64,000 bases of DNA from Tateyamaria pelophila. Its GTDB lineage: Bacteria > Pseudomonadota > Alphaproteobacteria > Rhodobacterales > Rhodobacteraceae. The position numbers and the translations under genes were made by a program. The DNA lies in contig NZ_JAIMIA010000003.1 in the NCBI RefSeq assembly GCF_019966495.1, positions 62,001 to 126,000 on the forward strand. Reading direction: 5' to 3'. Below are positions 5,338 through 59,170 of the stretch, one piece after another (the first letter of the stretch is position 1; each line of letters begins with the position of its first letter). Under the pieces are notes generated by a model. That model saw nothing but the letters and a program-made list of their open reading frames with translations. It had not been told where the DNA came from and did no database searches.

Positions 5338-5877
5338 ATGTGGCGCTTCGCCCGATACATGCTTTTGGCGCTGGCCTTGACAGGGGCCAGCGCTGTCTTT
5401 GCGCAGGATTTGCGCAGTCCTGTCTTGACCGTAGACAGCGACCGGTTGTACCGCGACAGTGACTTTGGCAAACGCGTGGCGCAGGAGATCGAAACGCTCG
5501 GCCGCGCGATGGCTGAAGAAAACCGGGTGCTCGAAGCCGAACTCGAAGCCGAAGAGCGCAGCCTGACCGCGCAACGCGCCGAACTCACACCCGAAGATTT
5601 CCGGACGCTCGCGGACGCTTTTGACGCCCGTGTTCAGAAGATCCGCCGCGAACGCGAATCCCAAAACCGGCTTTTGAGCGAGCAGTTGGAAGAAAACCGT
5701 GTGCGGTTCCTGAATGCGGCGGCTCCGGTTTTGGAAGACATCATGCGAGAGGCCGGTGCGGGCATCATTCTTGAACGCCGCGGTGTCTTCATCAGTGCCA
5801 ATGCCATCGACATCACCGTTGCCGCAATCGAGCGGATCAATTCCGTGCTCGGCGATGGTGTGCCCGCGTCCGAATAG
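5338..5877 (+). CDS. OmpH/Skp family periplasmic chaperone
   Basis: The 179-residue protein starts with a signal peptide (residues 1-23, ending VFAQ). It continues with a long charged helical part rich in Glu and Arg between about 55 and 125 that should form the coiled-coil tentacles of Skp, then a compact core. Skp holds unfolded outer-membrane proteins on their way to BamA, which fits its place four bases after bamA. The length is near the family norm. The OmpH family is sequence-divergent, so the call rests on size, architecture and position. Confidence 0.9.
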   Translation: MWRFARYMLLALALTGASAVFAQDLRSPVLTVDSDRLYRDSDFGKRVAQEIETLGRAMAEENRVLEAELEAEERSLTAQRAELTPEDFRTLADAFDARVQKIRRERESQNRLLSEQLEENRVRFLNAAAPVLEDIMREAGAGIILERRGVFISANAIDITVAAIERINSVLGDGVPASE

Positions 5878-5955
5878 GTCCCGCGCTTGCGGCACCGCAT
5901 CGCCCTTGCTAGTCAGGTGCTCAGCAAACCCGTATCAGCGAGGCCGGAACAGACA

Positions 5956-6420
5956 ATGAGCACAGAACTTCTTACAGCAGATATCGGGCTGATCCAGCGC
6001 ATCATTCCGCACCGTTATCCGTTTTTGCTGGTCGACAAGGTCATCGATATCGACGGCTACACGTCTGCGACCGGCATCAAGAACGTCACCATGAACGAGC
6101 CGCATTTTCAGGGCCATTTTCCGGGCAAACCCATCATGCCGGGTGTGACAATCGTCGAGGCGATGGCTCAGACGGCGGCCGTAATGGTGGGCACGGCTCT
6201 GGAGATGATGGACAAGAACATGCTGGTCTATTTCATGGCCATCGACAAATGCAAGTTCCGCCGCATGGTCGTGCCGGGAGATGTTTTGTACCTCAATCTG
6301 ACCACGACGCGTGGCAAACCGGGCGCCAAAGTCTGGAAATTTGCCGGAGTCGCACAAGTCGACGGTGAGATGGCGTGCGAAGCGGAATTCACGGCGATGA
6401 TGGATTTGCCCGCTGCATGA
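5956..6420 (+). CDS. fabZ: 3-hydroxyacyl-ACP dehydratase FabZ
   Basis: This 154-residue hot-dog-fold enzyme dehydrates 3-hydroxyacyl-ACP in fatty acid synthesis and competes with LpxA for hydroxymyristoyl-ACP. The N-terminal [11 protein letters not shown] segment and the catalytic motif [11 protein letters not shown] with His54 and Glu68 are intact. The ATG at 5956 gives the usual FabZ length; an in-frame extension to 5887 adds residues not seen in the family. The stop overlaps the lpxA start (ATGA), coupling it to lipid A synthesis. Confidence 0.97.
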
Positions 6421-12598: not shown

Positions 12599-13011
12599 CT
12601 CGGGATGTCGAAACCGGGTGGGGCGAGGGTAAAGCCGTCGAACTGGAAACCGGGAGAGACGGTGCAACTGACCAAGGTCCAGTCGCCGGTGCTGCGGGCC
12701 GCCTGCCAATGCCCGTCCGGAACGATCAGTTGCGGCGCACCGGCGTCAAGATCGGGTGTCAGAAGGTGATCTGTCGCGGGGCCCTTCTCATCCGGACTGA
12801 TCGAGAGGATCAACGGGTCGCCTGCGTGAAACAGCCAGATTTCGGTCGCGTCAACTTTGTGCCAGTGGCTGGATTCGCCCTTGGAAAGCAGGAAATAGAT
12901 GCAGGTACCCGTAGGGCGTCCGGAATTTTTGGCGACCCAGGTCTGGCGATAATGGCCGCCTTCTGGATGCGGGGTCAGCTCGAGCCGGGTGATGATCTCT
13001 TGTGCGTTCAT
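12595..13011 (-). CDS. cupin protein, DUF985 family
   Basis: A 138-residue single-domain cupin. It opens with LTPHPEGGHYRQTW and has HWHKVDATEIWLFHAGDP, matching the cupin_5/DUF985 family (YML079-like beta barrel). Function of the family is unsettled; nothing in the sequence identifies a ligand. It is translationally coupled to the downstream desaturase (ATGA), so the two are probably made together. Confidence 0.85.
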   Translation of the reverse strand: MNAQEIITRLELTPHPEGGHYRQTWVAKNSGRPTGTCIYFLLSKGESSHWHKVDATEIWLFHAGDPLILSISPDEKGPATDHLLTPDLDAGAPQLIVPDGHWQAARSTGDWTLVSCTVSPGFQFDGFTLAPPGFDIPR

Positions 13012-13145
13012 ATGCCAAGGGTAGGGTCACGACCGCCAGAGGGCAAGCGCATGCAAGCGATCATTGTCGGCAGTGGGAAGTCTGCTGGCTCACGGCTCAG
13101 TGGTGCTCAGGCTGTTGGGGCCGCGCCGTTTGGCATCGACCATCT

Positions 13146-13655
13146 TCAAAGCGTGATGTCGTAAAACCGCAACGCATGAAGCAGATCCGGGTCGGGGTCA
13201 TAAAAAGGTGCGCAAGGTGCGAAACCCATCCGCTCATAGAGTGCAATCGCCTCGGTCAAGGGCGCAATGCTGTCGAGCACCATGCGTTTGTAGCCGTCGG
13301 CATGGGCGCGGGCCATCGCGTTGCTGATCAAAGCCTGTCCGGCCCCGGAGCCACGCGCCTGTGGGCTGACAAAGACGCGTTTGATTTCGGTCGTGGTGGC
13401 GTCGATGGGGTAGTACATCGCACATCCGACCACGGTGTCGCCGAGGGTTGCGACCACGATGTCACCCTTTGGGCGCGCATGGATACGGGGCAGGTCGCGG
13501 ATCATCGCGTCATAGGTCTCGGCGGCGTAATAGGTGCCGATGAAGGTCGGAAGATGCGGCGAACGGTCCACCAAAAGCGCGCGGTAGGCCCAGCACAGCC
13601 GCGCGATATCCTCCATATCGGCGGCTGTTGCGGCTCTGATCTGAAGATCTGCCAT
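13146..13655 (-). CDS. GNAT family N-acetyltransferase
   Basis: The 169-residue protein has the GNAT fold: IRAATAADMEDIARL at the N-terminus, the acetyl-CoA pyrophosphate loop PQARGSGAGQALI near residues 107-119, and ALYERMGF near the end. The acceptor substrate is unknown. The ATG at 13655 has AGGT six to nine bases upstream; 14 extra in-frame residues upstream look non-coding. It sits just downstream of eno on the same strand with a 56-base gap. Confidence 0.88.
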   Translation of the reverse strand: MADLQIRAATAADMEDIARLCWAYRALLVDRSPHLPTFIGTYYAAETYDAMIRDLPRIHARPKGDIVVATLGDTVVGCAMYYPIDATTTEIKRVFVSPQARGSGAGQALISNAMARAHADGYKRMVLDSIAPLTEAIALYERMGFAPCAPFYDPDPDLLHALRFYDITL

Positions 13656-48869: not shown

Positions 48870-49098
48870 GCGAGAGGCGGCCTTTTCGTGCTGCGCCCGC
48901 TTTACCCGAATTCAGCGGCTTGGCAAGCGAGGGGATAGGGGCCGCGTTTTTGCGCATGAGGCGTTCGCACACTCTGCGATGATCTGTGGCCAAGGTTTGC
49001 GGTCATGCGGCCGGCTTTGCGATACCGGCTTTTGCTGGCATTTCGGGGCGCGGGGTCTACTGTGCCGACGAAAGGATCTCAATTGGAGTGAGCCCGAG

Positions 49099-49593
49099 AT
49101 GCAGCGCGATATGGATTTGAAACATCTGCAACGGTCCATCGATTTGGCCGATGAGGCCGTGCGGGAGGGCAATCACCCGTTCGGCGCGGTGCTGGTGTCC
49201 GAGACCGAGGAGGTGCTGCTGGAGGGCAAGAACAGCTATTCGGTCGATCGCGGTCCGGGCCATGCGGAGGCCAATCTGGCCCGCGAGGCCGCGCGTCAGT
49301 TTGATGCTGCGACGTTGCTGGCGGCGACGCTCTATACTTCGGTAGAGCCCTGTTCGATGTGTTCGGGCACCATCTATTGGGCCGATATCGGGGCTGTCGT
49401 CTTTGGTATGACGGAACACCGTTTGGGTGAATTGACGGGGGATGATCCTGAAAATCAGACACAGGATCTGGAATGTCGCGTCATCTTTGCCTCGGGGCGT
49501 CGTGAGGTGCAGGTGCGTGGCCCGTTTGAGGCGTTGGAAGAGCGGATTGCAGCGCAGCACAAGGCGTTCTGGAAGTCAGGCGGGGCCTCGTGA
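49099..49593 (+). CDS. nucleoside/nucleobase deaminase (cytidine deaminase fold)
   Basis: A 164-residue zinc deaminase. The ligand and proton shuttle GHAEAN (H55, E57) and PCSMC (C85, C88) are intact. Size and motif are like TadA/guanine deaminase (GDE-type) proteins; it lacks the features that would mark it as the essential tRNA deaminase. In a cluster with a purine-type transporter and a GuaD, a free-base role (guanine, adenine or a methylated purine) is likely; that is inference. ATG 49099 has GGAG ten bases upstream; ATG 49111 is an alternative. It overlaps the next gene (GTGA). Confidence 0.85.
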   Translation: MQRDMDLKHLQRSIDLADEAVREGNHPFGAVLVSETEEVLLEGKNSYSVDRGPGHAEANLAREAARQFDAATLLAATLYTSVEPCSMCSGTIYWADIGAVVFGMTEHRLGELTGDDPENQTQDLECRVIFASGRREVQVRGPFEALEERIAAQHKAFWKSGGAS

Positions 49594-49859
49594 CGGCCAC
49601 GGAATTCCGGCTGACGGGCCAGCTTGGGTCCAGCGGGTTTGCAGACTGGGTCTGTCACCGCGCCAGAGTGCTGGACCTGAATGGCTGGGTCAAACCGGAT
49701 GGATCCGAGGCGATGACGATCGTGGTGAGCGGCCCCGAACCCCTTGTGGATGCAATGGAAATGGCCTGTAGCCTTGGCCCCATGGATGTCTGGGTCGAGA
49801 GAATCGACCGCCATGCGCGGGCGTTGGACTCTCTGCCCAATGGATTTCATAAACTCTGA
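49590..49859 (+). CDS. acylphosphatase-like protein lacking catalytic residues
   Basis: An 89-residue protein with the size and layout of acylphosphatase (ferredoxin-like fold): LTGQLGSSGFADWVCHRARVL then NGWVKPDG. The catalytic Arg of the usual QGVxFR loop and the catalytic Asn of GWVxN are both replaced (FAD; GWVKP), so it should not hydrolyse acyl phosphates. It may bind a ligand or partner. It starts with GTG inside the deaminase stop, so it is made together with it. Confidence 0.7.
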   Translation: MTATEFRLTGQLGSSGFADWVCHRARVLDLNGWVKPDGSEAMTIVVSGPEPLVDAMEMACSLGPMDVWVERIDRHARALDSLPNGFHKL

Positions 49860-50011: not shown

Positions 50012-50653
50012 ATGTCAACACTGCCCGTAGGATTATCCCGTGATCTGTCGGCCAAACGAGTGATGCGCGCCACGGTGGGCGGGCAGGATCTGGTGGTCTG
50101 GCGCGCGACCAATGGCGAGATTTCCGCCTGGGACAACCGCTGCCCGCATCGCGGCATGGCGCTCAGCCACGGGTTTGTGCGGGGCAACACATTGGCCTGC
50201 CTCTATCACGGTTGGCATTACAATGGGGCAGGGACCTGTACCTATATCCCGGCGCACCCCGATCTGGATCCACCGGCTACGATTCGAACAAATCGTTTTT
50301 CCGTCGTCGAACAGGACGGTGTGATCTGGGTCCGTACCGACGGTGAGGCCCAGGCGCCGGACCTGCCCGGTGGGTTGGAGCCGTTGCGTGTTTTCATCGT
50401 GGCGGCGTCGGCGGATCAGGTGCAGTGCGGTGCGGCGCAGGTTCCGTACGAGGGGCAGATGGCGGATGCCGGTGCTGTGCTTCACTTCGGTGCCGTATCC
50501 GTCATGCTCTTGTTGAGTCCACTGGGGGACGGCCGCACGCAGGTGACGACGCTTGCCAGCGCTGGTTTGACAGTGGCACAGCGGTCTGCGCTGTCGCGGT
50601 GGTGCGAGGCCACGCGTCGGCATGTCGAAGCGCAACAAGAGGAGGCTGCATGA
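50012..50653 (+). CDS. Rieske [2Fe-2S] protein without an oxygenase catalytic site
   Basis: The 213-residue protein has an N-terminal Rieske domain of the ring-hydroxylating oxygenase type: C44-P-H46-RG and C63-LY-H66-GW, 16 residues between C-x-H and C-x2-H. Residues 115-213 are helical and strand-like and contain no D-x2-H-x4-H iron motif. It therefore carries the electron-transfer cluster of an oxygenase but not the active site. The next ORF has the opposite content and starts inside this stop (ATGA). In Pseudomonas methylxanthine demethylation the Rieske for NdmC is supplied by another protein (NdmD); this may be the equivalent. No reductase domain is fused here. Confidence 0.87.
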   Translation: MSTLPVGLSRDLSAKRVMRATVGGQDLVVWRATNGEISAWDNRCPHRGMALSHGFVRGNTLACLYHGWHYNGAGTCTYIPAHPDLDPPATIRTNRFSVVEQDGVIWVRTDGEAQAPDLPGGLEPLRVFIVAASADQVQCGAAQVPYEGQMADAGAVLHFGAVSVMLLLSPLGDGRTQVTTLASAGLTVAQRSALSRWCEATRRHVEAQQEEAA

Positions 50654-51492
50654 GCCGTGAACACGCCCTGAACGATTGGTACGCGGTCGCGGATGTGCCC
50701 GGATTGACGCGTGGGCCGCGCAAGGCGCGGTTGCTGGGCTGCGATCTGCGGGTCTCGGGCCAGGTCGACGATCCGGTGGTTACGGACGAGGCGGGCCACC
50801 GCTATCCCGCGCAGGTCAGATATGATCACATCTGGACCACGCTGGGCGACGACCCGCGTGCGTTGTTCGAAATCCCCGAAGGCGAACAGCCGGGTCGCCG
50901 CCGCGTTCCATGCGGCGTCGTACGGGTCAAGTGCTCGCCGCTGCGTGCCGTCGAGAATTTCCTTGATATCGCGCATTTCCCTTTCGTGCATACCGATATT
51001 CTGGGGGCTGAGCCGCATACCGAAGTGATGGCCTACAAGGCGGAAATCCGCGAAGAGGAAGACGAGGTCTGGGCCACGAATATCAGTTTCTACCAACCGC
51101 AGGCGGCCAAGAGTGCAGGCGGGGGGATCACCACGAAATACGCGTATCGCGTGCACGCACCGACGACGGCGGTTTTGTACAAGACCTGTCCACCCCGGCC
51201 CGAAGAAATGGATGTGATCGCGATTTTTGTGCAACCGCGCAGCGAGACCGAATGCGATGTCTGGCCGTGGATGGCACTTTATGATGACAGCTCAGAGTTC
51301 GCTGAATTGGTGCAGTTTCAGCAGGAGATATTCTTGCAGGATCGTTCCATTCTGGAGAACCAGCGGCCGACCAGATTGCCCCTTGATCCCAAGATGGAAA
51401 TCCCCACGCGGGCCGATCTGACCTCCATCGCCTATCGCCGCTGGCTCAAGCGCCGGGGCGCTTATTACGGCGCAATGACAGAGGACGCATGA
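50650..51492 (+). CDS. Rieske-less mononuclear iron oxygenase subunit (NdmC-like)
   Basis: A 280-residue protein with the C-terminal catalytic domain of Rieske oxygenases: N103-F-L-D106-I-A-H109-F-P-F-V-H114 supplies the bridging Asp and two His ligands, and D231 in QDRSILENQ is the third. The N-terminus begins like a Rieske subunit (NDWYAVADVPGL, RLLGCDL) but the CPHRG and CxxH loops are absent and only a short linker remains. It should need an outside Rieske cluster, most simply the coupled upstream protein. NdmC of caffeine-degrading Pseudomonas has the same deletion. Likely reaction: oxidative N-demethylation; substrate inferred as a methylated purine. Confidence 0.85.
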   Translation: MSREHALNDWYAVADVPGLTRGPRKARLLGCDLRVSGQVDDPVVTDEAGHRYPAQVRYDHIWTTLGDDPRALFEIPEGEQPGRRRVPCGVVRVKCSPLRAVENFLDIAHFPFVHTDILGAEPHTEVMAYKAEIREEEDEVWATNISFYQPQAAKSAGGGITTKYAYRVHAPTTAVLYKTCPPRPEEMDVIAIFVQPRSETECDVWPWMALYDDSSEFAELVQFQQEIFLQDRSILENQRPTRLPLDPKMEIPTRADLTSIAYRRWLKRRGAYYGAMTEDA

Positions 51493-52148
51493 GCAGTTTT
51501 ACCCTCTACAATTACGTGCTGTCCGGCAATTGCTACAAGGTGCGCCTGATGGCGGCGTTGCTGGGCGTGGAGTATGACACGGTGGCCGTGGACTTCTATC
51601 CAGGTTTTGAACATCGCAGTGAACCGATGCTGGCGCTGAACCCGTCCGGCACGCTGCCGATCCTGACGGCGGATGATATGGTGCTGACCGAAACGCAGGC
51701 GATGCTGGGCTGGCTTGCGGCAAAATTCGACCCGACGGGGCGGTGGTATCCGGCCGACGACCCGGTCGTGAGCGGCGAGGTTTTGCAGTGGCTTGGTGTT
51801 GCGTCACGGTTGACGGGCAGCGTGGGTGCGGCGCGTCTGCACGCGATGCTGGATTGGCCTGTGGACGGGGAGGCCGTGCGCAAGGACGCATTGAAAGAGC
51901 TCCAGGGATTTGAATTGCTGCTGACGGATCGCGTCTTTGCCGGGCAAACATGGCTGGTGGGCGATCATCCGACCATCGCCGATATCGCCTGTTTTCCCTA
52001 CGTCGCGCTCAGCCCCGATGCGGGGCTGGAGCATGATGGCTTTCCGGCCATTCGCAACTGGCTTTATGCGGTGCGCAGTCTGCCCGGTTTCGTGACCATG
52101 CCGGGTATTCACCAGTTGCACGAATTGCGCGAGGGCGCGCATGGCTGA
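51489..52148 (+). CDS. glutathione S-transferase family protein (NdmE-like position)
   Basis: A 219-residue protein with an N-terminal thioredoxin-like GST domain (YNYVLSGNCYKVRLMAALLG; NPSGTLPIL; LTETQAMLGWLA) and a C-terminal helical domain (ADIACFPYV). It starts inside the stop of the Rieske-less oxygenase (ATGA), so it is made with it. In the NdmCDE N7-demethylase a GST-like protein (NdmE) is required to hold NdmC and NdmD together; a structural rather than a catalytic role is therefore plausible. Its stop overlaps the ABC ATPase start by eight bases. Confidence 0.88.
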   Translation: MSSFTLYNYVLSGNCYKVRLMAALLGVEYDTVAVDFYPGFEHRSEPMLALNPSGTLPILTADDMVLTETQAMLGWLAAKFDPTGRWYPADDPVVSGEVLQWLGVASRLTGSVGAARLHAMLDWPVDGEAVRKDALKELQGFELLLTDRVFAGQTWLVGDHPTIADIACFPYVALSPDAGLEHDGFPAIRNWLYAVRSLPGFVTMPGIHQLHELREGAHG

Positions 52149-53691
52149 GCCGACCCCGCTTTTGCGTTTGCGCGGCGTGACCAAGGCCTATCCGGCAGTG
52201 CTGGCCAATGACGCCGTCGATCTGGATGTGATGCCCGGCGAGATTCATGCGGTTCTGGGGGAAAACGGGGCCGGTAAGTCGACCCTGATGAAGATCATTT
52301 ATGGCTCGGTCCGCCCGGATGCGGGAACGGTGGAATGGAACGGCCAGCCCGTGGATATCCAATCGCCCGCGATGGCGCGCGAACTCGGCATCGGCATGGT
52401 GTTTCAGCATTTCTCGCTTTTTGACACGCTGACGGCGGCGGAAAACATCTCGCTGGCGGTGCCGGGCACGATTGCGGAATTGTCCGAGCGGATCAGGGCC
52501 GCGTCAGCGCAATTCGGTCTGGATGTCGAGCCGGGGGCCCGCGTCCAATCCATGACGGTGGGCGAACGCCAGCGCATCGAAATCCTGCGCTGTATTCTGC
52601 AGGAACCGAGGCTGATCATCATGGATGAACCGACGTCCGTTTTGCCGCCTCAAGGCATTTTAAAGCTGTTTGAGACCTTGCGGGCCTTGGCCAGCGAGGG
52701 GATCGGGATTGTCTTTATCTCACACAAGCTGGATGAAATCCGGGCCTTGTGCGACACCGCCACGGTGATGCGGGGCGGGCGGGTTGTGGGCGTTGTGGAC
52801 CCGAGGGTCGAGGATGCACAAAGTCTGACGCGGATGATGATCGGGCGCGAGATTGCGCCGCCGACCCACGGGGCCGAGCGGGGCGATCGCCATACGGTGC
52901 TGGAGGTGACGGGGCTGAACTACACGCCCGAAGACCCCTTTGCCACCGTATTGAAGGACGTTCACCTGAGCGTGCGCAGCGGCGAGATCCTCGGCATCGC
53001 CGGGGTGTCCGGCAATGGTCAGGATGCGCTGACCCGGGCGTTGGCAGGAGAGATCGTGCTGCGATCGGACAAGGGCAGCAGCGTCATGCTGGAGGGCACG
53101 CCGATCGGGGCGCTTGGCCCGGATGGCCGCCGTGCGCTGGGGGTGAATTTCATTCCCGAAGAGCGCCTTGGGCGCGGTGCGGTGCCGATCCATACTTTGG
53201 CCGAGAATGTCGGTTTGACCACGCATCACGGTGGTCTGGTCAAGTGGGGCTTCTTGCGGCTGGGGCAGCGTCGCCAGTTGGCCAGTGACACCATCGACAC
53301 CATGGACGTCCGGTGCGGCGGCCCGGATGCCACGGCGCAAAGCCTGTCGGGGGGCAATTTGCAAAAGTTCATCGTGGGGCGCGAATTGGCGTTGCGCCCC
53401 AAGGTTCTGATCGCGTCGCAGCCGACCTGGGGCGTCGATGTGGGGGCGGCCGCTGCGATCCGTCAAAAGCTGATCGATTTGCGGGACGAGGGTGCCGCCG
53501 TTTTGATCGTGTCGGAAGAGTTGGAAGAGATCTTCGAGATTTGCGACCGGATACAGGTGATGTTCCGGGGGCGTTTGTCCGAAGCGGTGCGCGTGCGCAC
53601 CACGGACATCAATCACGTGGGTCTGGCCATGGCCGGTGATTTCGATGCGCTGCATGCGGCTCCTGTCGAAAAGGAGGCCGCCCTTGGCTAG
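52141..53691 (+). CDS. BMP-type nucleoside/nucleobase ABC transporter, ATPase with two cassettes
   Basis: A 516-residue double ABC ATPase of the simple-sugar/nucleoside family. Cassette 1 has Walker A GENGAGKST and Walker B LIIMDEPTSVL. Cassette 2 has the degenerate Walker A GVSGNGQDALT, signature LSGGNLQK and Walker B VLIASQPTWGVD, typical of nucleoside importers (NupA and related). With two permeases and a BMP-family binding protein downstream it forms a complete importer. Genes before and after overlap it, which ties transport to the oxygenase genes. Confidence 0.93.
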   Translation: MAEPTPLLRLRGVTKAYPAVLANDAVDLDVMPGEIHAVLGENGAGKSTLMKIIYGSVRPDAGTVEWNGQPVDIQSPAMARELGIGMVFQHFSLFDTLTAAENISLAVPGTIAELSERIRAASAQFGLDVEPGARVQSMTVGERQRIEILRCILQEPRLIIMDEPTSVLPPQGILKLFETLRALASEGIGIVFISHKLDEIRALCDTATVMRGGRVVGVVDPRVEDAQSLTRMMIGREIAPPTHGAERGDRHTVLEVTGLNYTPEDPFATVLKDVHLSVRSGEILGIAGVSGNGQDALTRALAGEIVLRSDKGSSVMLEGTPIGALGPDGRRALGVNFIPEERLGRGAVPIHTLAENVGLTTHHGGLVKWGFLRLGQRRQLASDTIDTMDVRCGGPDATAQSLSGGNLQKFIVGRELALRPKVLIASQPTWGVDVGAAAAIRQKLIDLRDEGAAVLIVSEELEEIFEICDRIQVMFRGRLSEAVRVRTTDINHVGLAMAGDFDALHAAPVEKEAALG

Positions 53692-54778
53692 GTTCGTGAT
53701 CGAAGCCCGGCCGGAGCGGTCGGTCTGGGCGCCCATTCAGGTGTCGTTGCTGGCGATCCTGCTGACCTGCATCGGCGGATCGTTCCTGTTCATGGCCTAC
53801 GGGGTTGCGCCGTTGAAGGGGCTGGAGGCGGTGTTCATCGACCCGCTGCGCAGCACCTATGGCATTGGGGAAGTGCTGTTGAAAATGGCGCCGTTGCTGT
53901 TGATCGCGCAAGGGCTGGCCATCGGGTTTCGGGCACAGGTCTGGAACATCGGGGCCGAGGGGCAGTTGATCGTCGGGGCCATCGGGGCCTCGCTACTGGC
54001 GATCCAGTTTGATGGGACGACCTCGCCGCTGTTGCTGCCGGGGATGATCATCGCGGGCATGGTCGGAGGCATGGCCTGGGCCGGGGTGGCGGCGTTCCTG
54101 CGGGCGCAATTCAATGCCAACGAGATCCTTGTGACCTTCATGCTGACCAGCGTGGCGTTGCAACTGTTGTACTACCTTGTGTCGGGTCCGATGCGCGATC
54201 CGATGGGGTTCAACTTTCCGCAATCAATCAGTTTCGGGCCGTCCGCGACCTTCCCGATCCTGATCCCCGGCACACGGGTGAATGCCTCGCTGTTTCTGGG
54301 GCTTGGGGTCACGGTATTGGCGCTGATCTTTGTCCAGCGCAGCCTTGCGGGCTACAAGCTGTCGGTAGGCGGCGTGGCCCCCGGAGCCGCAATGTATGCG
54401 GGGTTTTCGTCGAAACGGGCGATCTGGCTGGCCTTGCTGATCTCGGGCGGTGCGGCGGGGCTGGCGGGGGTCGGCGAAGTTGCGGGACCGTTGGGCATGC
54501 TTCAGCGCAACGTGTCGCCCGGATACGGCTATGCGGGCATCATCGTGGCGGTTTTGGGGGGATTGCATCCCATCGGAATCCTTTTTGCCTCGGCGCTGAT
54601 GGCGCTGGTTTACGTCGGCGGAGACTTTGCGCTGTTGACGGTGGGCGTGCCCAACGCGGTCACCGGTATCTTTCAGGGCATGCTGTTGACTTTCTATCTG
54701 GCGTGTTCGTTCCTTTTGACACAGCGCATCCGGCGGATCACCCCGGAGACCGTTCCAAAGGGGGCACCGGCGGAATAA
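53684..54778 (+). CDS. BMP-type ABC transporter permease 1
   Basis: A 364-residue inner-membrane permease with about eight to ten helices; AEGQLIVGAIGA, FNANEILVTFMLTSVALQLLYY and ILVAVLGG-type motifs match nucleoside-type permeases. The start is TTG 53684: AAGGAGG lies six bases upstream, the best ribosome site in the operon, and the longer frame is inside the ATPase gene. Its stop overlaps the next ATG (TAATG). Confidence 0.92.
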   Translation: MARFVIEARPERSVWAPIQVSLLAILLTCIGGSFLFMAYGVAPLKGLEAVFIDPLRSTYGIGEVLLKMAPLLLIAQGLAIGFRAQVWNIGAEGQLIVGAIGASLLAIQFDGTTSPLLLPGMIIAGMVGGMAWAGVAAFLRAQFNANEILVTFMLTSVALQLLYYLVSGPMRDPMGFNFPQSISFGPSATFPILIPGTRVNASLFLGLGVTVLALIFVQRSLAGYKLSVGGVAPGAAMYAGFSSKRAIWLALLISGGAAGLAGVGEVAGPLGMLQRNVSPGYGYAGIIVAVLGGLHPIGILFASALMALVYVGGDFALLTVGVPNAVTGIFQGMLLTFYLACSFLLTQRIRRITPETVPKGAPAE

Positions 54779-55695
54779 TGGATGTTCTGATTTTCATCGT
54801 CAGCGGAACGCTCGCGGCGGCCACGGCGCTTCTCTTTGCTGCCATGGGCGAGCTTGTGGCCGAAAAATCGGGCATGTTGAACCTCGGGATCGAGGGGATG
54901 ATGGCGACCGGGGCGGCGATGGGGTTTGTCGCCTTGTCCGTGTCCGGCTCGCACAGCGTGGGATTTCTGGCCGCGGCGGTGCTGGGGGCGGTTTTGTCGC
55001 TGATCTATGCCATGCTGACACTGGTCTTTCGGGCCAATCAGGTCGCCTCGGGGCTGGCCATCGGCATTCTGGGGCTGGGCCTGTCGTCCGCCATCGGCAA
55101 GAACTACGAGGGCAAGACGGTGACCGGGCTGGAAGAACTGGACCTTGGCCCGCTGTCGGATATTCCACTGCTGGGACCGATGTTCTTTCAGCAAGACGTG
55201 ATGGTCTATCTGAGCATCGTTCTGATTTTCGCCACATGGTACCTGCTGAACCGGACCAAGCTGGGGTTGATCATCCGCGCCATCGGTGAAAGCCCGGAAA
55301 GTGCCCATGCGCTGGGGCTGAAGGTGCGTCTGATCCGGGCGGGGTGCGTGGCCTTTGGCGGGGCCATGGCTGGCATCGGCGGGGCCTATATGTCCACGGC
55401 CTACACGCCGCTCTGGGCCGAAGGGATGATCGCCGGGCGGGGCTGGATCGTCGTGGCGCTGACCGTGTTTGGAACCTGGATCGTCAAGCGGGTGGCGTTC
55501 GGGGCGTACCTCTTTGGCTCCATCTCCTTGCTCGAACTCTCCATTCAGGCGTTTGGCGTGAATGTTCCCAGTCAACTGATGTCGGCGATGCCTTATATCG
55601 TCACGATTGTCATGCTGGCCGTGATCTCGCGCAACCCTGTGTTTATCCGGCTCAACAGTCCCGCCAGCCTTGGTGCGACCCTGAAACTCAACTGA
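54778..55695 (+). CDS. BMP-type ABC transporter permease 2
   Basis: A 305-residue permease of the same family as the preceding one (GELVAEKSGMLNLGIEGMMATGA; FRANQVASGLAIGILGLGLSS). The two form the heterodimeric membrane channel. It ends 26 bases before the binding protein gene. Confidence 0.93.
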   Translation: MDVLIFIVSGTLAAATALLFAAMGELVAEKSGMLNLGIEGMMATGAAMGFVALSVSGSHSVGFLAAAVLGAVLSLIYAMLTLVFRANQVASGLAIGILGLGLSSAIGKNYEGKTVTGLEELDLGPLSDIPLLGPMFFQQDVMVYLSIVLIFATWYLLNRTKLGLIIRAIGESPESAHALGLKVRLIRAGCVAFGGAMAGIGGAYMSTAYTPLWAEGMIAGRGWIVVALTVFGTWIVKRVAFGAYLFGSISLLELSIQAFGVNVPSQLMSAMPYIVTIVMLAVISRNPVFIRLNSPASLGATLKLN

Positions 55696-55721: not shown

Positions 55722-56804
55722 ATGCTGCCCAAATCCCTGAAAACAACACTGACGGCGGTCGCTGCCGTAACGGTGCTGGCCGTGCCCGCCACCGCGCAGG
55801 ACAAGCTCAAGATCGGATTTCTGTTTCCCTCTCCCATCGCCGATGTGGGCTGGTCTGCGGAGTTGAACCACGGACGGCAAGCCATCGAAGAGCATTTTGG
55901 CGATCAGGTCGAAACCATTTTCGTCGAAAACGTGCCCGAAGGGCCGGATGCCGCGCGCATCATGAACCAGATGGCGGCGCAAGGCGCCGGGATGATCATG
56001 CTGGGCTCGTTCGGCTATATGAACGATGGCCTGAAGCTGGCGCAGCAACGCCCGGACATGACGTTCATCCATGCGTCTGGCTATAAACTGGCCCCCAATC
56101 TGGGTAACTTCCAGAGCCGGAACTATGAAAGCTCGTATCTTGTTGGGATGGCCGCCGCGGACGTCACTGAAACCGATACCGTGGGCATCGTGGCCGCCTA
56201 TGCGATCCCCGAAGTTGTGGGCATGATCAATGGCTTTGCGTTGGGTGTGCAAGAGGTGAACCCGGATGTCACGATCAAGGTGGTCTGGCTGAACTCCTGG
56301 TTCGATCCACCCAAGGCACAGGAAAGCGCGCGCGCGCTGATGGCGCAGCAGGCGGACGTGATCTATTCGCTCTATCAGGATACGCCGTCGGTGGTGAGTG
56401 TCGCGGAGGAAGAGGGCGTCTGGGTCATCAACACCTCATCCGACATGAAGGATTACGCACCCAACTGGTTGCTGGCGTCACAGATCGCCGACTGGTCAAC
56501 CTATTTCATCGAGAGCACTCAAGCCACGATTGATGGCACGTTTGAAGGCACCGCGTTCTGGGGCGGTATGGCGGACGACACGGTGGATGTGAAAAGCTGG
56601 TCTTCTTCGATCTCTGCCGAAACCATGGCCAAGATCGAAGCGGCCGCTGCCGCGATTCGCGCTGGCGAATTCCACCCGCTGACAGGCCCGATCCTGGATC
56701 AGGAAGGCACCGAGCGTCTGGCCGATGGTGAGGTGATCGAGGATGGCGCGATGGCCAGCATCGACTGGCTGGTGAGCGGCGTCGAAACGCGCATTCCGCA
56801 ATAG
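55722..56804 (+). CDS. BMP family ABC transporter substrate-binding protein
   Basis: A 360-residue periplasmic binding protein. A signal peptide (residues 1-25, ending ATAQ) precedes the PnrA/BMP fold: KIGFLFPSPIADVGWSAELNHGRQ and WVINTSSDMKDYAPN. BMP proteins bind purine and other nucleosides or bases; in this cluster a (methylated) purine base is likely. It has no lipobox cysteine. AAAAGG precedes the ATG by eight bases. Confidence 0.93.
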   Translation: MLPKSLKTTLTAVAAVTVLAVPATAQDKLKIGFLFPSPIADVGWSAELNHGRQAIEEHFGDQVETIFVENVPEGPDAARIMNQMAAQGAGMIMLGSFGYMNDGLKLAQQRPDMTFIHASGYKLAPNLGNFQSRNYESSYLVGMAAADVTETDTVGIVAAYAIPEVVGMINGFALGVQEVNPDVTIKVVWLNSWFDPPKAQESARALMAQQADVIYSLYQDTPSVVSVAEEEGVWVINTSSDMKDYAPNWLLASQIADWSTYFIESTQATIDGTFEGTAFWGGMADDTVDVKSWSSSISAETMAKIEAAAAAIRAGEFHPLTGPILDQEGTERLADGEVIEDGAMASIDWLVSGVETRIPQ

Positions 56805-56816
56805 GGGCGCACAAAC

Positions 56817-58118
56817 GTGCCAGTGTTTCGGGCCGATCTGATCCACACCCCCACCCGGGGGCGGATCGCGCGCATGCAAGACGCGCTGATCCGTGTGGAT
56901 GCGGACGGTACAATCACCTCTGTGGCGTCTTTTGATGCCACAGAGACACCGGATGTGGTGGATTTGCGCGGGCAGGGTGTGTTGATCCCCGGCCTGGTCG
57001 ATCTTCACATTCACGCGCCGCAATTCCCACAGCTTGGGACGGCGCTCGATGTCCCGCTCGAGGACTGGTTGCAGCGCTACACCTTTCCGCTTGAGGCGCG
57101 TTACGCCGATCTGGCTTTTGCGACGCGGGTCTATGACGCGTTGGTGCGCCGCCTTTTGGCCAATGGGACGACGACGGCGGTCTATTTCGCCACGATCCAC
57201 GGGCCCGCCAGTCTGCGCTTGGCCGAGATCTGCGTCGTGCAGGGCCAGCGGGCCTTGGTGGGCCGGGTGGCGATGGATGATCCGCACGGATGCCCGGACT
57301 ATTACCGCGATGCGGATGCGGCCACCGCGATCCGTGATACCGCCAGTTTCGTGGAGGCCGTGCGCGCGATCCCCGGCAATGCGCTTGTGGAGCCTGTGAT
57401 CACGCCGCGCTTTATACCGGCCTGTAGCGATGAGGCCTTGCACGGCCTTGGTCAGCTTGCGCGTGACACCCGGGCGGCGGTGCAAACTCATTGCTCGGAG
57501 AGCGATTGGGAACATGGGCACGTGTTGGATCGGTGCGGGATGAGCGATGCGCATGCGCTGGACAAGTTCGGCTTGCTCACACGGCGCACGGTGCTGGCCC
57601 ATGCGGGTTTCATCGACGCGGACGATATGGATCTGATCCGCGCGCGGGGGGCGGGCGTTGCGCATTGCCCGCTGTCGAATACCTATTTCGCCAATGCGGT
57701 CTTTCCGCTGCGCCGGGCGCTGGAAAAATCGGTGCGCGTGGGGCTGGGGACCGACATTTCCGGGGGCCCAAGTGCGTTCCTGCTGGACAATGCGCGGGCG
57801 GCTGTGGCGGGGTCGCGGATGCTGGAAAGCGGGGTTGATCCTGCAACTCCGGCCGGGAACCGCGGTGTCGGGGACAGCCGTGTCGATTTCCGCGATGCGT
57901 TCTGGCTGGCAACCACGGGGGGCGCGGATGTGCTCGACCTGCCGGTCGGGCTTTTTGAAGTGGGCCGTCAATTCGATGCAGTACTGGTGGACTTGCCCGA
58001 TGTGGACCTGGTGGAGCAAAGTGCCGACGATCTGTTGCAGGGCATCGTGATGCGCGCGACACCCGGCGATCTCCGCGCCACATGGGTCGCGGGGCGCTTG
58101 GTGTCCGGAGCGGTCTAG
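56817..58118 (+). CDS. guaD: guanine deaminase (GuaD-type amidohydrolase)
   Basis: The 433-residue enzyme belongs to the metal-dependent amidohydrolases. VDLHIHAPQFPQLG (H64, H66) is the guanine deaminase form of the first metal motif; H225 in QTHCSES, H262 in AHAGF and D313 in GLGTDISGG complete the site. Guanine deaminase makes xanthine from guanine; on N-methylguanines it would give methylxanthines. It starts with GTG 12 bases after the BMP stop and overlaps the convergent Rieske oxygenase by four bases. A related 8-oxoguanine or pterin deaminase cannot be ruled out. Confidence 0.88.
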   Translation: MPVFRADLIHTPTRGRIARMQDALIRVDADGTITSVASFDATETPDVVDLRGQGVLIPGLVDLHIHAPQFPQLGTALDVPLEDWLQRYTFPLEARYADLAFATRVYDALVRRLLANGTTTAVYFATIHGPASLRLAEICVVQGQRALVGRVAMDDPHGCPDYYRDADAATAIRDTASFVEAVRAIPGNALVEPVITPRFIPACSDEALHGLGQLARDTRAAVQTHCSESDWEHGHVLDRCGMSDAHALDKFGLLTRRTVLAHAGFIDADDMDLIRARGAGVAHCPLSNTYFANAVFPLRRALEKSVRVGLGTDISGGPSAFLLDNARAAVAGSRMLESGVDPATPAGNRGVGDSRVDFRDAFWLATTGGADVLDLPVGLFEVGRQFDAVLVDLPDVDLVEQSADDLLQGIVMRATPGDLRATWVAGRLVSGAV

Positions 58119-59170
58119 CTGCTCAGTGGGGCGCCAAGGCCGAATTTTTCGACCAGCGCGCGACGGTACGCGACGGACATGCGGTCGGCGGGGATGTGGA
58201 CCTCGTCCATGATGCCCAGCGGCAAATCCTCCGGGTGCTGGTTTTCGACCAGCGGCTTGTCCTCGTCATTGATCATCAGACTTTCCTTGATCAAAAACGT
58301 TTCGTCCGGTGCGCCGGTGGTGTCGGTGGCGACCTGAAAGATCCGGGTTTCATGGGCCGAAACCGGGCAAACGGTGTCGGCGAAATACTGCACATACCAA
58401 CTGTCATTGGGTCGGATGATGATGATCGTGGAAAACGGAAAGGTCAGTTCGTAGGTATAGACCACGTGGCGGGTATCGCCGGGCACGTCGTCGGGGAAGC
58501 GGTTGCCACCCTCGTCATACTCCAGATCGAAGGTCAGCCCGGAGGGTGTTTCGTGCACCGCGTAATGCGGGATGCGGTCATCTTCGCTGCCGCCGAATGT
58601 TGCTGTGTGGACCCATGGAAAATGGGCAACATCATTGAAGTTCTCTACATGCCGACTGGCGGCGGCCGCCCATGTGTTTGCCGGAACAAACACTTTTTTC
58701 AGTGCTTCATCTCGGATGCCGGGCCAGTCCGGCAAGGGCCAGCTTGGTGTGTCCGACAGACAGGTCCATACGATGCCGTAGCGTTCCTCGACTCGCAATG
58801 ACTGCAACCTCAGACGCGGCGAAACCCGCGCGGACTGATCCGGGTTGGACGGGATTTTGGTGCATTGACCGGCGGCGTTGAAATGCAGACCATGCATCGG
58901 ACAGATCAACTGATCTCCATCCACGCGGCCGGCGCTCAGCCGGGTGCCGCGATGCGGGCACAGATCGCGGGCGACAGACACGCCCGCGCCCGTCTTCCAG
59001 ATCACCAGATCGACATCCAGCAGGCGCGCGGCAAGCGGTTTTTTCCCGACCTCATGCACAAAGGCGACCGGATGCCAGAAGCCCGAAAGGATCCGCCAAT
59101 CGTGCTCTGAAAAAGTACAGTTTCTGGGCAGATCCGAAGCATGCGCAGAGTGATCAATGGGCAGGAACAC
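58115..59170 (-). CDS. Rieske non-heme iron oxygenase, alpha subunit (NdmA/B-like architecture)
   Basis: A full-length 351-residue oxygenase: Rieske ligands C71-P-H73-RG and C90-PM-H93-G, then VENFNDVAHFPWVH with D180, H183 and H188, and D304 in DEDKPLVENQ as the third iron ligand. It belongs to the group with vanillate-type and methylxanthine N-demethylases, which work without a beta subunit. The GTG start has AGGA seven bases upstream. It is convergent with guaD, not in the operon, but shares the neighbourhood; a second demethylation step at another position is a reasonable guess. No reductase gene lies beside it. Confidence 0.9.
   Translation of the reverse strand: MFLPIDHSAHASDLPRNCTFSEHDWRILSGFWHPVAFVHEVGKKPLAARLLDVDLVIWKTGAGVSVARDLCPHRGTRLSAGRVDGDQLICPMHGLHFNAAGQCTKIPSNPDQSARVSPRLRLQSLRVEERYGIVWTCLSDTPSWPLPDWPGIRDEALKKVFVPANTWAAAASRHVENFNDVAHFPWVHTATFGGSEDDRIPHYAVHETPSGLTFDLEYDEGGNRFPDDVPGDTRHVVYTYELTFPFSTIIIIRPNDSWYVQYFADTVCPVSAHETRIFQVATDTTGAPDETFLIKESLMINDEDKPLVENQHPEDLPLGIMDEVHIPADRMSVAYRRALVEKFGLGAPLSS

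Follow-up and report, generated by a model that had tools for sequence, protein, structure and literature searches.

Two overlapping genes in a 64,000-nucleotide stretch of Tateyamaria pelophila DNA (the window) carry, one each, the two metal sites of a Rieske oxygenase. This split is real and conserved and belongs to the NdmCDE kind of system, but with a Rieske subunit that stands alone. The first gene (50012..50653, + strand) encodes a free-standing Rieske [2Fe-2S] protein of 213 aa (RIE; ligands C44, H46, C63 and H66), and the second (50650..51492, +) an NdmC-type catalytic subunit of 280 aa (OX; D106, H109, H114 and D231). The stop of RIE and the start of OX overlap in ATGA (50650..50653, +), and the gene of a GST-like protein homologous to NdmE (GST; 51489..52148, +) starts in a second ATGA overlap, with the end of OX. 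On re-reading the window sequence, the ORF coordinates and the RIE/OX overlap given in a preliminary description of this DNA proved exact. The overlap suggests coupling of RIE and OX, which may be made in equal amounts.

Pfam matches, alignments and motif counts agreed that RIE has all four Rieske ligands and no iron motif, as first described. Its Pfam match was the Rieske domain alone, the four ligands were invariant in 38/38 aligned sequences (window counted), and the 92 extracted RIE proteins all had an intact Rieske motif, with the [DN]xxHxxxxH motif present in none. OX matched VanA_C, with KshA_C under the cut-off and no match to a Rieske model. Its residues D106, H109, H114 and D231 were invariant in 35/35 close and 18/18 diverse sequences (window counted), and the DxxH...H motif was found in 99/99 extracted OX proteins, the CxH...CxxH motif in 0/99. 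The preliminary description had listed these four residues as iron ligands of a protein devoid of Rieske loops; the residues are all present and the loops are indeed missing, but we take the iron triad to be H109, H114 and D231, and D106 to be the bridging Asp of the electron path. OX lacks the cluster-binding part of the Rieske domain, while the N-terminal strands are still repeated in it; NDWYAVAD and RLLG, reported earlier for its N-terminus, are both present. Neither protein is an ordinary Rieske oxygenase alpha subunit, which has both metal sites on one chain, whereas jointly, by their complementary motifs and Pfam matches, they supply the metal sites of one such enzyme, as had been proposed.

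The closest known relatives were found in NdmCDE systems, the BLASTP references being homologues from other strains and not the CBB5 proteins themselves. OX was 42-50% identical to NdmC-type proteins of P. putida KF715, Klebsiella MS6671, Paraburkholderia caffeinilytica, Sinorhizobium and Komagataeibacter (OXb), with 42-44% identity to those from caffeine or purine clusters, and GST was 40-47% identical to NdmE-type GSTs from the same reference strains. RIE, which matches the N-terminal part alone of NdmD-type proteins (34-41% identity), was 50% identical, over 124 residues, to the free Komagataeibacter Rieske protein RIEb; a second Komagataeibacter set was more distant (OXa 30% to OX, RIEa 33% to RIE). 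NdmC and the N-terminal Rieske domain of NdmD are thus the right comparison. Judged by sequence, OX can be assigned to the NdmC family (iron site intact, no Rieske motif, homology to NdmC) and GST to the NdmE family (predicted GST-fold homologue, coupled to an ndmC-type gene). RIE is not an NdmD, in which a Rieske domain, a flavin/NAD reductase and a plant-type ferredoxin are joined in one chain.

NdmCDE, the 7-methylxanthine N7-demethylase of Pseudomonas putida CBB5 and its relatives, which acts at the final step of bacterial caffeine degradation, likewise consists of an iron-only oxygenase subunit, a separate Rieske domain and a GST-like structural partner; however, its Rieske domain is fused to an NADH reductase (NdmD), whereas in the window it forms a separate protein of 213 aa and the cluster contains no such reductase. 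The stand-alone Rieske protein had at first been regarded as a different arrangement. This holds for a free RIE without a local reductase, which is unlike NdmD, but not for the system as a whole, which is of the NdmCDE kind because OX has its direct homologue in NdmC, RIE in the NdmD N-terminus and GST in NdmE. Both halves match the folds and sequences of NdmA/NdmB, SxtT/GxtA and dicamba monooxygenase, in which, unlike in RIE and OX, both metal sites reside on one chain. HpxD is also a purine-linked Rieske oxygenase, but of one chain, and neither it nor RO2, a one-chain oxygenase of the window, falls within the split clades.

In ordinary Rieske oxygenases the electron already travels between subunits, leaving the cluster of one and reaching the iron of the next, so a cut between the domains need not break the electron path. 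According to an excerpt of PMC10380055, the cluster of NdmA/NdmB lies 12.1 Å from the iron of the neighbour versus 44.7 Å from that of its own chain, NdmCDE has three copies of each protein, and NdmE is structural. The NdmA/NdmB distances explain how a chain can be cut between its domains. An excerpt of a review (PMC4408171) names NdmCDE as the earliest report of a Rieske domain that is split off and fused to a reductase, and states that NdmD serves NdmC. No paper describing a free Rieske partner, and none linking methylguanine or guanine deaminase to such a system, was found in the open-licence literature, as judged by titles and the beginnings of abstracts; the excerpts of PMC12445004 and PMC8055839 mention no free Rieske partner, and that of PMC6421345 contains nothing on a RIE-OX-GST operon.

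RIE, OX and GST probably assemble into a single heteromeric enzyme, a Rieske oxygenase of the NdmC/NdmE type, which would most likely N-demethylate an imported methylated purine. The data show directly how the genes are laid out, which metal ligands they encode, their homology and conservation, and the common descent of OX; from these we infer the formation of the complex, its stoichiometry, its electron donor and its substrate. In the proposed mechanism, the purine and O2 would be bound by OX at its iron, the GST-like protein would act as the holder of RIE and OX, and the [2Fe-2S] cluster of RIE would be positioned beside the OX iron. Electrons would enter RIE from a general ferredoxin or reductase, and oxidative N-demethylation of the imported methylguanine or methylxanthine would yield a product that passes to guanine deaminase.

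The neighbours of the split pair in the window (a guanine deaminase, a purine-type importer and an HpxD-like oxygenase) suggest purine N-demethylation or hydroxylation. The importer genes, named from the annotation of homologues, encode an ABC transporter ATPase (52141..53691, +), in an operon with a BMP-family substrate-binding protein (55725..56804, +; start picked inside a longer ORF), and two permeases (53636..54778 and 54703..55695, both + and with uncertain starts). They are followed by the guanine deaminase gene (56817..58118, +), whose product passed the TIGR02967 cut-off (383.2 versus 375.4 bits). RO2 (58115..59170, - strand), placed tail-to-tail with guanine deaminase with a 4-base overlap, is 39% identical to HpxD, which is annotated as a subunit of a molybdenum-cofactor-independent xanthine hydroxylase, and shares a clade with it in the Rieske tree; the catalytic tree carries a long-branch warning. 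RO2 homologues were also seen in loci L002 and L008, upstream of RIE and on the same strand.

The conservation of these genes was examined in loci of the best 80 of 193 OX relatives from a GTDB scan, which are related and picked by similarity; GST was present in 80/80 and RIE in 79/80. Upstream of RIE lie genes of a CDA-fold deaminase (48967..49593, +, start chosen; TadA-like at 60.5 bits, under the TadA cut-off of 150), found in 6/80 loci, and of a small ACYP-like protein (49590..49859, +; Pfam Acylphosphatase, 30.6 bits), found in 77/80. The latter lacks the expected catalytic Arg. Of 93 aligned rows, at least 86 have a different residue at the position of this Arg, and most lack the Asn. 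A profile derived in part from these very loci detected ACYP-like proteins in 13/21 free-RIE loci and 0/9 fused loci. The whole importer was present in 68 of the 72 loci (among these best 80 of 193) with 7 kb of downstream sequence. Of the same 72 loci, 63 contained an 8-oxoguanine-deaminase-like amidohydrolase and 4 a true guanine deaminase, while 5 had neither of the two.

The location of OX beside guanine and xanthine enzymes fits the demethylation of methylguanine or methylxanthine. The OX gene shares 4 bases with a guanine deaminase ORF in L131 and L132; in L126 it overlaps an XDH-like ORF (55 bits to the reference used). ORF starts are mechanical in these loci. Two OX paralogues lie near one RIE/GST pair in L126 (7620-8603) and L127 (6397-7422); this purine supercluster also contains XDH-like ORFs, a guanine-deaminase-like gene and an 8-oxoguanine deaminase that passes its cut-off. 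Proteins of the MoCoBD_2 family, the family of xanthine dehydrogenases, are encoded elsewhere in the genome of the window.

The proposal of a three-part demethylase is weakened by the rarity of a true guanine deaminase, and the four loci without the importer, the poor model of OX near its iron, the purely structural likeness of the RIE C-terminus to a catalytic domain and the failure to find an NdmD-type reductase in the genome also speak against it. In addition, no formaldehyde-disposal genes were seen in the cluster of the window, unlike in L111. The main rival explanation, which we consider rather unlikely, is that the same three-part enzyme hydroxylates a ring carbon of a purine (e.g. C8), giving 8-oxoguanine or urate. 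The annotated function of HpxD, a relative from the wider family (29% identical to OX), is in line with such a reaction, as is the high frequency of the L115-like amidohydrolase (the 63 loci mentioned above). For the amidohydrolases of two RIE-OX-GST operons, the top-scoring model was that of 8-oxoguanine deaminase (L115, 367; L016, 408), and one such enzyme beside an OX in genome G153 passed its cut-off (572 versus 532). On the other hand, the two scanned operon enzymes stayed below this equivalog cut-off of 532, the NdmC-type proteins of caffeine and purine clusters are much nearer to OX (42-44%) than HpxD is, and the XDH-like ORF overlapped by OX in L126 would be superfluous after C8 hydroxylation of xanthine.

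For demethylation or hydroxylation alike, RIE is assigned here to OX. It is highly improbable that RIE is instead a Rieske ferredoxin for other oxygenases, such as RO2, with OX being fed from elsewhere. RIE weakly matches Rieske ferredoxin models, and RO2 lies about 7 kb from it in the window; however, RO2 is present in only 2/80 loci (against 79/80 for RIE), OX itself has no Rieske site, and homology links RIE to the Rieske portion of NdmD, the partner of NdmC according to the review excerpt (PMC4408171). Moreover, RIE fits the Rieske domains of oxygenases far better (best E 2.6e-25 versus 1.4e-5 for ferredoxins) and remained under all ferredoxin cut-offs (MocE family 24 bits against 136, PRK09965 24.5 against 113, AndAb 22.1 against 150). 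Rieske-type ferredoxins such as CarAc are free Rieske proteins, as RIE is, but RIE is longer, scores best with oxygenase Rieske domains and has an oxygenase-like C-terminal fold in its structural model.

This model (mean pLDDT 96.7) aligned in Foldseek with GxtA and SxtT chains at a query TM of 0.73-0.78, which exceeds what a Rieske domain of ~110 residues alone gives, and the last ~100 residues of RIE therefore appear to approximate a reduced catalytic fold. The model thus predicts for RIE the build of a complete oxygenase chain whose second domain is shrunken and free of iron. Profile comparison of this last part of RIE with the catalytic domains of oxygenases (hhalign) detected no sequence homology, so the likeness is structural only; a PHROGs scan of RIE gave no matches. 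The OX model had a lower mean pLDDT (79.4), with poor regions near the iron site (residues 111-122, 153-157 and 248-255), and aligned with GxtA at a query TM of 0.73-0.80. In the profile alignment with one-chain oxygenases (probability 99.9), OX starts at residue 4 and the cluster loops are gapped; a BLAST-like alignment with SxtT/GxtA showed the same gap of ~50 residues, its N-terminal piece alone not being significant.

No NdmD-type reductase was detected in the loci of the best 80 of 193 relatives (0/80 at E 1e-7), and the best match in the genome of the window to one stand-alone NdmD-like reductase (E 1e-6) was not convincing; nor was any of its five PF00175 proteins, of which two have 444 aa and one is PaaE-like, below the cut-off, besides two others. 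As neither the neighbourhood nor the genome yielded an NdmD-type reductase, RIE is proposed to be fed by a general ferredoxin or reductase. A free reductase gene of the NdmD kind does occur within the same cluster in L135 and L187.

The split itself was surveyed in 110 sampled loci, 99 of which (the window's own counted) contained OX; these were chosen by similarity to OX, come mostly from related rhizobia and derive from two genome collections that may share species. RIE and OX overlapped by 4 bases in 84 of the 99, showed another spacing in 8, and had no adjacent same-strand RIE in 7. The conserved overlap excludes chance, and together with the presence of RIE in 79/80 loci it indicates that the two genes are kept together in related genomes. 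Larger stretches of six of the seven exceptions (all but L009) revealed a free RIE and GST nearby in five, either next door on the opposite strand (L131, L132) or ~5-7 kb away (the other three), and an NdmD-type fusion in place of free RIE in L137. An ordinary alpha subunit broken by a sequencing error or a recent frameshift, a reading for which no supporting point was found, is ruled out to near certainty by these comparative data, since the identical split and overlap recur in 83 of the 98 other loci, the N-terminal strands are duplicated in OX, as the preliminary description had already argued, and no OX has kept the cluster motif.

The split system is broad but patchy, as is evident from its low counts in genome samples that include the genome of the window. 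Matches above 200 bits were found in 19/292 genomes of its own order, Rhodobacterales; the three other genomes of the genus in this sample gave no match. The phylum sample contained 23/398 genomes with a match at 1e-40, 15 of the split type and 8 of one chain by their ORFs, and the class sample 9/385, one of these being one-chain. Genes of the OX type are mostly annotated generically, e.g. as 'aromatic ring-hydroxylating dioxygenase subunit alpha'.

Five gene arrangements were distinguished: (a) RIE-OX-GST without a local NdmD-type reductase (the window, rhizobia and others); (b) the same three genes plus a free reductase gene, in L135, in L187 (where the OX ORF has just 189 aa), in Komagataeibacter L116 and in L133, which closely resembles L116; (c) OX together with GST and an NdmD-type fusion (L111-L114, L137, L195, L196, L198); (d) in L193 (8104-9360), a Rieske domain apparently fused to a plant-type [2Fe-2S] ferredoxin, with no flavin/NAD domain, beside OX; and (e) two OX genes alongside a single RIE and a single GST (L126/L127, L128/L129). 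Genome G115 also has two OX genes, with one RIE-GST pair in the stretch examined (L130). Since one RIE and GST may lie near two OX genes, the partnership of RIE and OX need not be 1:1. The free form is the commoner arrangement in the sampled loci. L116, on a Komagataeibacter plasmid from kombucha, and L133, in genome G273, each encode a second Rieske-like protein (5787-6320 and 12767-13504, respectively), that of L116 having GVYH at the place of the second CxxH; the close similarity of the two clusters suggests recent transfer.

In the catalytic tree, the 48 Rieske-less OX formed one clade (100/99) against 14 one-chain oxygenases, which demonstrates their shared descent. In the Rieske tree (120 columns; both RIEa rows, from L116 and L133, left out for their broken cluster motif), the 42 split-off Rieske proteins likewise formed one clade (99/96). 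Nine fused rows (L193 among them, L194 not counted as fused) and two free ones made up an 11-row clade (98/91), with two more free rows just outside. As the fused rows nest among free ones, a free ancestor is more parsimonious. For groups defined after the first tree was seen, the AU test weakly rejected 'free' RIE as one clade (p 0.036, 120 columns) and did not reject 'fused' as one clade (p 0.144); in the OX tree the first split separates a mostly fused-type group, and this tree favours neither form as the older. NdmD is thus probably a derived fusion and the free form older, with moderate support.

The descent of both halves from one ordinary oxygenase lineage, of the f43 type, is at most compatible with the trees: OX grouped with f43 at 87/87 (not starred), and the grouping of RIE with f43 was not rejected (p 0.275, with few columns and L102 badly trimmed). 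One-chain Rieske oxygenases of the f43 family lie beside BMP transporters in L165-L171, L200 and L201, and that of L165 also adjoins an ORF that by eye resembles adenosine deaminase. These one-chain oxygenases are possible intact relatives of the split enzyme.

Tentatively, a broader picture may be drawn, in which a broad two-chain class arose from a duplicated ordinary purine oxygenase whose copies decayed oppositely: in one, only the cluster was kept and the catalytic domain became vestigial; in the other, only the iron was kept and the Rieske domain became the vestige. The free Rieske protein could serve several interchangeable catalytic subunits per genome, NdmD would be a late fusion to a reductase, and the usual job of the class in rhizobia and marine bacteria would be to recover methylated guanine or xanthine released by nucleic-acid turnover, not to use caffeine. 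Although only a minority of genomes carry it, the free-standing form is spread across rhizobia and also occurs in some Rhodobacterales and further Proteobacteria; it is apparently commoner and probably older than the NdmD-type fusion that was reported first. With the metal sites on separable proteins, cluster-to-iron electron transfer could be studied by swapping one half, and the system points to a candidate purine step in root-nodule and marine bacteria.
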